Of a stretch of 64,000 nucleotides of DNA, positions 1,840 to 56,309 are shown piece after piece. Each line of letters opens with the position of its first letter. Within the stretch, counting starts at the first letter, position 1. This DNA comes from Bdellovibrio reynosensis. Its GTDB lineage: Bacteria; Bdellovibrionota; Bdellovibrionia; Bdellovibrionales; Bdellovibrionaceae. Below the pieces are notes generated by a model. It worked only from the letters and a program-made list of their open reading frames with translations. It was not told the origin of the DNA and ran no database searches. The position numbers and the translations under genes are program-made. The stretch lies in the NCBI RefSeq assembly GCF_022814725.1, contig NZ_CP093442.1, positions 2,480,001-2,544,000 of the forward strand, read 5' to 3'.

Positions 1840-3849
<2,010 letters not shown>

Positions 3850-3850
3850 A

Positions 3851-3883
3851 AATAAAAAACCCACGGTTTTTACGCCGTGGGGT
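3851..3883 (-). terminator. Intrinsic terminator for the histone gene
   Basis: A seven-base-pair stem CCCACGG/CCGTGGG (3860-3866 with 3875-3881) with an eight-base loop. On the minus strand it is followed by a run of T residues (the A-rich stretch 3851-3859), so it best serves the leftward histone gene. It also lies directly behind the ligA stop and may block read-through from that side. Confidence 0.8.
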
Positions 3884-3907: not shown

Positions 3908-4102
3908 TTAAAGATGGTCGATAACGATATCGCGAGCCATAACAGTTTTACGACCGTCAGCTTTTGCGCTCTCGATACCTTTCAAGCAAAGTTGCTCGAT
4001 AGCTTTGCTAAGTACATCAATTGTCTCAGCAGAAGTGTTCATTTGACCTTTATCTTTGATGAGTTTTTTCACTTTGCTTGTCACTACAAGTACGTCTGCC
4101 AT
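3908..4102 (-). CDS. Bacterial histone-fold DNA-binding protein (HBb/Bd0055-like)
   Basis: A 64-residue protein that is a single bare histone fold. The visible pattern is helix 1 VTSKVKKLIKDKG, loop QMNTS, long helix 2 AETIDVLSKAIEQLCLKG to about residue 48, loop RKTV and helix 3 MARDIVIDHL. The RKTVMARDI stretch matches the loop 2/helix 3 signature RKTVkaeDI of archaeal histones. Established knowledge: B. bacteriovorus HD100 encodes such a protein (Bd0055, HBb), reported as an abundant chromatin component whose dimers bind DNA in an unconventional way. The start has a GGAGAGG ribosome site seven bases upstream. Inference: this is the HBb orthologue and acts as a nucleoid-compacting dimer; it may be essential, as reported for HD100. 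It stands alone between ligA and a phosphoesterase gene, with its own terminator. Confidence 0.93.
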   Translation of the reverse strand: MADVLVVTSKVKKLIKDKGQMNTSAETIDVLSKAIEQLCLKGIESAKADGRKTVMARDIVIDHL

Positions 4103-4191
4103 GATTAAACCTCTCCATCCATGTTATTGAAACAGTAAAAAGGGTTGCATAGGGTCAAGAAATTGACAATATGAAATCTTCTTGCGGCGCA

Positions 4192-5667
4192 CTAATTATT
4201 TGATGAACTTCCACGTCCTGGGTTCGTCATCAGCTCTGACTTGCCATCCATAAATCTAAAAAGTTCAGCTTGTCGGGTCCCCTGTTCACCCGGAGAAAGC
4301 CACACGTAGGTTTTTTGATCAAGGGGCTTTGTGCATTCCACATCTAAGAACGCCGGTGACCAACAGCCACTGTTAAGGTGTTCCACTGATCCAATGATTT
4401 CATGGCGGGTCTGGTGTGTATGACCAAAAACAATCCGGTGTACCTTCGTGATGGCACTAGCCATTGCTAACACCCGATCATCCGGCTCTTTGTAGCCAGA
4501 AACGAGCGAAGTCACTGACTTGCTGTAAAATAAGAAGAAGGGCAGCAACAAAAATAACGGAATAAACGCCCAAAAAAACGACACTTCGTAAACGGAGCGA
4601 ACAAAGACCATTAGTTGAAAGATTAAAAAGAAGGTCACGAAAATCATAAACGCACGATCTAACCATAGTTCGCGCGCTAGCAAAAATGGATTACTTGCAG
4701 CCGGTGCTACAAAGAGTTCTTTAAGTTCACGCACCATGCGCGGTTCAGCGTTTGATTTTTGCGCAATCAAGGCAACACGATCTTCAATCTTTAAAGGATT
4801 TCTGATCGGCGCAGCCAAGCGGTCAAAGAAAGAGTGAATCAAAGTCATCACTGCCCCCCAAAACCAAGTTAAGACAAGAAGTGGTTGGGCGCGGGCCACG
4901 TACCTAAAGAAAAAGCGAATGTATTCAGGCAAAGTCATGATGTAGTTACTATCAACATGGGGATTAAAAAATCCCATACCGTTCATTATGTAACGACAAG
5001 CCAAGTTCCCAAACGGCAGCTTTAGTGAAACGTAGTTATAACCACGCACAAAGGGGTTGATTGGGTCTTCACACATACAATACGGGTCGTATTGATTGCC
5101 ATGCTCAATCAAAGTGTCTTGGTTGCTGATGTAAAACCATTCTGCAAAACGAACTTCATGGCGCTTGTGATCCGGCAGGTTCAGGTGTTTAAAAATTTCT
5201 TCCTGCACCTGGGGGAAATGCAATTCTAAATCATGATTACCGATAACGAAAACGGCACGATTTCCGCGCAGAATGAATTCACGCAAAGTATTTACGAAAT
5301 CGACATGATCCTTAAGAATCATTTCAATCTTATAGCGAGAACGTTCTTCCCGTGGATATAAACCGCGCTGACGCTCTAACCACTCTACGTGAAACACCGG
5401 TTCTTTAGGGACGCTGGTAACGCTGTCAAAATCAAAGATGTCGCCGTTAAGAATCAGTTCAACGGGCGCGCCCTGCGCTTTGTCTTCGATGTGTTTAACG
5501 AATTGGGTAAAGGTATCGTCAAAGAAAAATTGCCGAGTTTTAAACTTCTTCCACAAGGGATACTTCGGATTAATAGGTTCCGCCTCACACAAGTGCAAAT
5601 CACTGATTATGGCAGTGTGTGTGGCATTTTTGAAATCAGGAAAAGCTTGTGAAAAAGAAGTGGGCAA
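4192..5667 (-). CDS. Membrane-associated calcineurin-like metallophosphoesterase
   Basis: The 491-residue product carries the dinuclear-metal phosphoesterase motifs in order: SDLHL (about 22-26), GDIFDF (about 75), GNHDLELH (about 140) and GHTHQTRHE (about 415). This layout is close to the UDP-2,3-diacylglucosamine hydrolase (LpxH) branch. Unlike plain LpxH (about 240 residues) it has an insertion of well over 100 residues with two or three hydrophobic segments near 330-390 (FMIFVTFFLIFQLMVF; FFWAFIPLFLLLPFFLFY), so it is probably membrane-bound. The start is a TTG at 5667 with a strong GGGAGGA five bases upstream; no in-frame ATG comes before the first motif. The start region overlaps the divergent murD. 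The substrate cannot be deduced. Confidence 0.85.
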   Translation of the reverse strand: MPTSFSQAFPDFKNATHTAIISDLHLCEAEPINPKYPLWKKFKTRQFFFDDTFTQFVKHIEDKAQGAPVELILNGDIFDFDSVTSVPKEPVFHVEWLERQRGLYPREERSRYKIEMILKDHVDFVNTLREFILRGNRAVFVIGNHDLELHFPQVQEEIFKHLNLPDHKRHEVRFAEWFYISNQDTLIEHGNQYDPYCMCEDPINPFVRGYNYVSLKLPFGNLACRYIMNGMGFFNPHVDSNYIMTLPEYIRFFFRYVARAQPLLVLTWFWGAVMTLIHSFFDRLAAPIRNPLKIEDRVALIAQKSNAEPRMVRELKELFVAPAASNPFLLARELWLDRAFMIFVTFFLIFQLMVFVRSVYEVSFFWAFIPLFLLLPFFLFYSKSVTSLVSGYKEPDDRVLAMASAITKVHRIVFGHTHQTRHEIIGSVEHLNSGCWSPAFLDVECTKPLDQKTYVWLSPGEQGTRQAELFRFMDGKSELMTNPGRGSSSNN

Positions 5668-54890: not shown

Positions 54891-56309
54891 TCACACCCCT
54901 GTGATATTGTGGATTCTTTGTTCTAAATCTTCGATATCTTTAGCAATATCTTGGTCGGTTGCTTGTAGATTGCGAACACGTTCTAGCGCATTCATCACAG
55001 TTGTATGATCTTTTCCGCCGAAAGCTTTGCCGATATCCACCAGTGATTTATCCAGGAACTTTTTAATCAAATACATGGCAATTTGACGTGGAACGACAAT
55101 AGGTTTTGCGCGCGTAGATGATTTTAAGTCTAAAACTTTCACTTTAAAGTGGTCTGCAACAAGCTTCATAATCTCTTCCACACTGATTGTGGATTGAGTT
55201 TCATGGTGCGCAAGAATGCGTTTCACAAGGTCATAATCAATCGGTAAACCTTGAAGCTCAGAGAACATTTTAATCTTACGTAAATTGCCCTCTAACTCTC
55301 TGATCGAGCGTTTAGAAATACGTGCGATATAATTCACAACGTCTTCAGGTACGCGCACATTAAATTTTTCGGCTTTATATCTTAGGATCGCGATTCTGGT
55401 TTCAAGATCCGGCATGGTGATATCCGCAATCAAACCACGTTCTAAACGCGTACGACTACGGTCTTCTAAGCCATGGATATCTTTAGGCATTCGGTCTGAA
55501 GCCAGGATGACTTGTTTGCGCGTATCGATGAAGCTATTAATAGTGTGGAAAAACTCTTCCTGAACAGCTTCCCCGCGGGCGATATACTGCACGTCATCCA
55601 CCAATAAGATGTCTGAATTTTCGCGGTATTTTTGGCGAAACTTATCCATTTCATAGCGGCGGATGGCTGAAATACATTCATTTAAGAAACGTTCTGCAGA
55701 TATATATGTAATTCTAAGATGCGGAAATTGCTCACGAATTTGGTTTCCCGCAGCGTGAAGCAAGTGGGTTTTACCCATTCCCACTGGTCCATATATATAG
55801 AGAGGATTATAATCATCAGCTGCCGGGTTGCGGGCAACGTTATAGCAAGCCGCGTGAGCAAATTCTGAATTTTTACCCACTACAAATGTGGAAAAGGTCA
55901 GTTCAGAGTTTAAAGCCTCCTGGCCAGACCTTGGTTGAGTAACCTGGATATTCTGAGCACGAGCTAATTGAGCCTGAAGGATTTCGCTACCACCCAAAAC
56001 CTCTTCTGGAGGCTGGTTAGCTGTCTCAATATGAGAATTTACTTTGCTTCCAGTAATACTAAACTCGACCTCAAAAGGTCTTCCATAAGTATCTGAAATC
56101 TCTGTGAAAATTTTATCCTGCAGATTCTCAATAACGAAGTATTGATGAAGGGCATTAGGTACGCCAAGGACAATTCTTGGTCGCTCAAGACTACCCAAGG
56201 TATTCACGTACTCAATAGGATCTAGCCAGGTATCCAACAACTTGTTGTTGTCGTTCCGGCTTTTCATTTTAGTTTTGATCAGTGTCCAAAAAGACGAGTT
56301 TAATTCCAC
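54891..56309 (-). CDS. dnaA: Chromosomal replication initiator DnaA
   Basis: A 472-residue initiator. Domain I (SSFWTLIKTKMKSRNDNNKLLDTWLDPIEY), variable domain II, AAA+ domain III with Walker A GPVGMGKTHLLHAAGN and sensor/Walker B DILLVDDVQYIARGE, and DNA-binding domain IV with GKDHTTVMNALERV (K in place of the common R of the RDHTTV signature). GTG start at 56309 behind GAGGGGAAACAC. It binds the oriC boxes just downstream and opens the DUE. It runs leftward; rpmH runs away from it rightward. Confidence 0.98.
   Translation of the reverse strand: MELNSSFWTLIKTKMKSRNDNNKLLDTWLDPIEYVNTLGSLERPRIVLGVPNALHQYFVIENLQDKIFTEISDTYGRPFEVEFSITGSKVNSHIETANQPPEEVLGGSEILQAQLARAQNIQVTQPRSGQEALNSELTFSTFVVGKNSEFAHAACYNVARNPAADDYNPLYIYGPVGMGKTHLLHAAGNQIREQFPHLRITYISAERFLNECISAIRRYEMDKFRQKYRENSDILLVDDVQYIARGEAVQEEFFHTINSFIDTRKQVILASDRMPKDIHGLEDRSRTRLERGLIADITMPDLETRIAILRYKAEKFNVRVPEDVVNYIARISKRSIRELEGNLRKIKMFSELQGLPIDYDLVKRILAHHETQSTISVEEIMKLVADHFKVKVLDLKSSTRAKPIVVPRQIAMYLIKKFLDKSLVDIGKAFGGKDHTTVMNALERVRNLQATDQDIAKDIEDLEQRIHNITGV

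Follow-up and report, generated by a model that had tools for sequence, protein, structure and literature searches.

A near-identical orthologue of the Bdellovibrio histone HBb in Bdellovibrio reynosensis

The closest described relative of the protein considered here is HBb (Bd0055) of Bdellovibrio bacteriovorus HD100, for which crystal structures have been published both free and bound to DNA (PDB 8FVX, 8FW7, 8CMP, 9EZZ, and 9F0E). HBb ranks 12th in abundance among 2,125 proteins of HD100 and is the top protein of the nucleoid fraction (PMC10627809); it bends DNA and binds genome-wide, and an attempt to delete its gene failed (PMC11317129). Its DNA-contact residues are T8, S9, K10, K12, K16, N22, T23, S24, A25, K52, T53, and R57, and its salt bridges link D49-R51-D58 (PMC11317129). 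The geometry of the HBb-DNA complex is disputed by two groups, one describing an end-on sheath on straight DNA (PMC10627809) and the other a bending dimer (PMC11317129). The other histones used for comparison each differ from the protein studied here: HLp of Leptospira perolatii (9QT0) tetramerises and wraps about 60 bp (PMC12701072); the ZZ histones, of which Bd3044 is the type, carry an N-terminal zinc-finger-like domain; and archaeal HMfA and HMfB have longer alpha2 and alpha3 helices and wrap DNA as hypernucleosomes (PMC11317129).

Here, we analysed a window of 64,000 nucleotides from the complete genome of Bdellovibrio reynosensis (3,582,323 bp), in which the following features were located (window coordinates).

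3908..4102, minus strand: hbb orthologue, a tailless singlet histone of 64 aa with alpha1, alpha2, and a short alpha3
4110..4116, minus strand: Shine-Dalgarno-like GGAGAGG seen in the sequence, with the ATG 7 nt downstream
4145..4169, minus strand: promoter-like block TTGTCA-N12-TATGCAA, conserved in the genus and occurring once in the genome; putative promoter
3860..3881, minus strand: terminator-like hairpin (intrinsic type) common to the histone gene and convergent ligA, with the T-run TTTTTTATTTTT on the histone side
1849..3849, plus strand: ligA, NAD-dependent DNA ligase, the convergent neighbour (ORF, translation, and synteny; context only)
4192..5667, minus strand: metallophosphoesterase-like gene, upstream of the histone gene on the same strand (ORF and synteny; context only)
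54891..56309, minus strand: dnaA, marking the oriC region, 51 kb from the histone gene on the same strand (context)

The histone ORF runs from an ATG at 4102 to 3908 on the minus strand (the original prediction had given no strand), and its translated product is MADVLVVTSKVKKLIKDKGQMNTSAETIDVLSKAIEQLCLKGIESAKADGRKTVMARDIVIDHL. This protein scores above the curated Pfam cut-off for PF00808 (CBFD_NFYB_HMF), and it is equal in length to HBb and identical to it at 61/64 residues (E=1.5e-34), a match that clusters it by sequence with the bacterial dimer histones. The three substitutions that set it apart, E3D, E17D, and V43I, are judged conservative and, in the alignment, fall outside all HBb residues published as DNA-contact, RD-clamp, or named dimer-interface residues and outside the D49-R51-D58 salt bridges (lists taken from PMC11317129). 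The interface residues V11, L31, I35, L38, and I59 are the same in both proteins, and the RD clamp motif R51-K52-T53...D58 is present together with the alpha1 lysines K10, K12, and K16. HBb and this protein thus agree at every residue listed for DNA contact, the RD clamp, or the dimer interface. An ORF of 64 aa with an SD-preceded ATG leaves no extra domain, as in the HBb type, and is too short to hold an N-terminal ZZ zinc finger.

An AlphaFold2 model of the monomer, run with 30 relatives, reached a pLDDT of 82 and contains helices at residues 2-19 and 25-48 and a short one at 56-58, where alpha3 amounts to one turn; the shortened alpha2 and very short alpha3 of the bacterial dimer histones are thus both seen in the model. 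Foldseek ranked five HBb chains on top (E 2e-7 to 1e-6, 95-97% identity; best matches 9ezz, 8fvx, 9f0e, and 8cmp), followed by archaeal HTkC and then by Leptospira HLp, which shares the bacterial singlet histone fold (probability 1.00, 34% identity). HMfA and HMfB share the histone fold, the RKT loop-2 motif, and the RD clamp at 28-30% identity, but the full-length alpha2 and alpha3 of HMf hypernucleosome stacking are absent from the model, whose alpha3 is short, and the sequence matches HMf weakly (E about 0.07). The C-terminal histone domain of the Bd3044 type is about 48% identical to the HBb orthologue. The original prediction had described a complete, tailless histone fold of 64 residues, and the ORF, the PF00808 match, and the AlphaFold2/Foldseek results bear this out; its assignment to the HBb/Bd0055 type agrees with the 61/64 identity, the kept functional residues, and the Foldseek ranking. 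As a check it had proposed structure prediction of the dimer; prediction of the monomer gave a model closest to the HBb crystal structures.

Very probably, then, the B. reynosensis protein is the HBb orthologue, an alpha3 histone of the "bacterial dimer" kind that would serve, by analogy with HBb, as a nonspecific, HU-like, DNA-bending nucleoid protein. From the HBb crystal we infer that it would form a handshake homodimer, gripping minor grooves via alpha1 (T8, S9, K10, K12, K16), loops 1 and 2 (N22-A25, K52, T53), and R57, and that the dimer would bend DNA without sequence specificity. As HBb does in HD100, it may act as an abundant and probably essential nucleoid protein working beside HU/IHF-family proteins. 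It is unlikely that dimers instead coat straight DNA as an end-on sheath with no bending, as in the first HBb crystal model. The 8FW7 crystal structure of the near-identical protein (PMC10627809) favours such a sheath, and the contact residues are all common to HBb and the B. reynosensis histone, but another co-crystal form points to bending, as do MD, tethered particle motion, and assays of topology and circularisation (PMC11317129); at 95% identity the B. reynosensis sequence does not discriminate between the two.

The strong ribosome site of the original prediction corresponds to the GGAGAGG found 7 nt from the ATG, of which GGAGA is kept across the genus, with an SD-like sequence at 75/78 loci. 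Its claim that the histone gene has its own terminator stands only in part: a terminator-like hairpin (-13.2 kcal/mol, z -2.3) does sit in the 58-bp gap separating the gene from the ligA stop, and the cleaner T-run (TTTTTTATTTTT) falls on the histone strand, but the hairpin is common to ligA and, because it scores on both strands between convergent genes, is not exclusive to the histone. Upstream, the block TTGTCA-N12-TATGCAAACCTTTTA (4145-4169, minus strand) is accompanied by TGCGCCGCA at 4183-4191 and is conserved in part beyond the genus, as TATGTAA. We regard the block as a promoter candidate with non-canonical spacing, unlike sigma-70; a consensus search of the histone strand returned no sigma-70 promoter, and Rfam gave zero matches for an RNA element around the gene. 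A role for the block as a regulon signal was rejected because the pattern is found once genome-wide.

The convergent ORF at 1849-3849 (+), which we take to be ligA from sequence recognition and from its earlier naming, confirms that the histone gene adjoins this ligase gene, as the original prediction stated; the metallophosphoesterase name derives from the translation motifs SDLH, GNHD, and GHTH. Relatives with long flanks mostly show a metallophosphoesterase gene followed by the histone gene on that strand, next to which come convergent ligA and, further on, gatC. Gene order is the same, and the dnaA distance similar, in the genome taken as HD100 (G001). Among loci of distant relatives with rearranged flanks (L103, L115, L117, L123, and also L054 and L086), the metallophosphoesterase gene is inverted in some and ligA moved or inverted in others, with the histone intact. 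In 18/18 measurable genomes of the genus, the histone gene shares its strand with dnaA and lies 44-61 kb away from it; the location "near oriC" given in the original prediction is accurate as regards the gene, with dnaA 51 kb off in B. reynosensis.

The further suggestion, that this version of the histone differs or packages DNA near oriC, was not supported, given 95% identity to HBb, all tested functional residues kept, and genome-wide binding of HBb. Local action of the protein, in which it would package or regulate the DNA around oriC or ligA, is very improbable. The proximity of dnaA, the adjacent ligA, and the conserved order speak for it, but in DAP-seq HBb bound throughout the HD100 chromosome with no sequence specificity (PMC11317129), so that the question of packaging near oriC is unsupported, and the location of a gene does not predict where a diffusible protein binds. 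In addition, the ligA neighbourhood is disrupted in part of the distant relatives that retain the histone (e.g., L054, L059, L086, L123), and since the histone persists where the arrangement breaks, ligA seems to adjoin the histone gene without being its partner. The gene's chromosomal place, on the strand of dnaA and about 50 kb away from oriC, is inherited and may bring a small gene-dosage gain during replication. That the constant oriC distance and the conserved, genome-unique promoter-like block together reflect selection to supply histone at the right time and in high dosage while the cell replicates inside its prey is a doubtful reading.

The histone is encoded in 24/24 searched genomes of the genus, at 86-100% identity. 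At the class level 129/130 genomes match by row count, part of them weakly, and 302/325 genomes of the phylum have some match, the weaker of these probably belonging to other histone types, judged from their low scores. Within the genus 53/64 residues are invariant, and 45 of those columns vary in codon; the 22 unsaturated pairwise comparisons give dN/dS values of about 0.02-0.09, which indicate strong purifying selection. T8, S9, K10, K12, N22, T23, S24, R51, K52, T53, R57, and D58 are invariant in 30 proteins down to 70% identity, and K16 is kept in at least 90% of these relatives. Synonymous divergence is lower in the histone gene (pS 0.22-0.74) than in its neighbour (0.78-0.92), which would fit codon selection for high expression. 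The possibility that the ORF is a chance ORF or decaying relic, for which its small size (64 aa) alone speaks, is vanishingly small in view of purifying selection, presence in all 24 genus genomes, the conserved SD, and the hairpin that follows the gene in almost every member of the genus. A contig labelled as a Streptomyces griseus MAG (L061:1378-1569) encodes an HBb that is 84% identical and lies in synteny with ligA and the metallophosphoesterase gene; the contig is probably a mislabelled or contaminated bin.

The host differs from HD100 in base composition and in histone content. Window GC is 42.3% vs 50.5% in HD100 (PMC11317129), as the original prediction had anticipated in noting a lower GC. 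No second histone was detected in the B. reynosensis genome with P0001, PF00808, PF09123, or a Bd3044-type protein; the Bd3044-type ZZ query matched above chance only the histone domain of the HBb orthologue, and thus no ZZ copy was detected. A second histone occurs in 7/24 genus genomes. L031-L036 carry one, and the copy in L032 is about 168-188 aa long with an N-terminal Cys-rich, zinc-finger-like domain (Bd3044/ZZ type). Although a review calls Bd3044 essential (PMC11318664), the absence of the ZZ histone from this genome and from the majority of the genus fits poorly with that description. Four HU/IHF-family genes lie in the same genome outside the window (G000:C1 660301, 1044439, 1884637, 3049503).

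The histone gene is real and conserved, and the kind of protein that it encodes is already known, leaving the novelty implied by the original prediction unsupported. What is slightly new is minor: the lack of a detected second histone, the conserved dnaA distance, and the conserved, genome-unique promoter-like block. The results confirm HBb as a universal, almost invariant nucleoid protein of the genus, at 42% GC as at the 50.5% of HD100, and a genome whose sole detected histone is HBb offers a cleaner background than HD100 for HBb studies.
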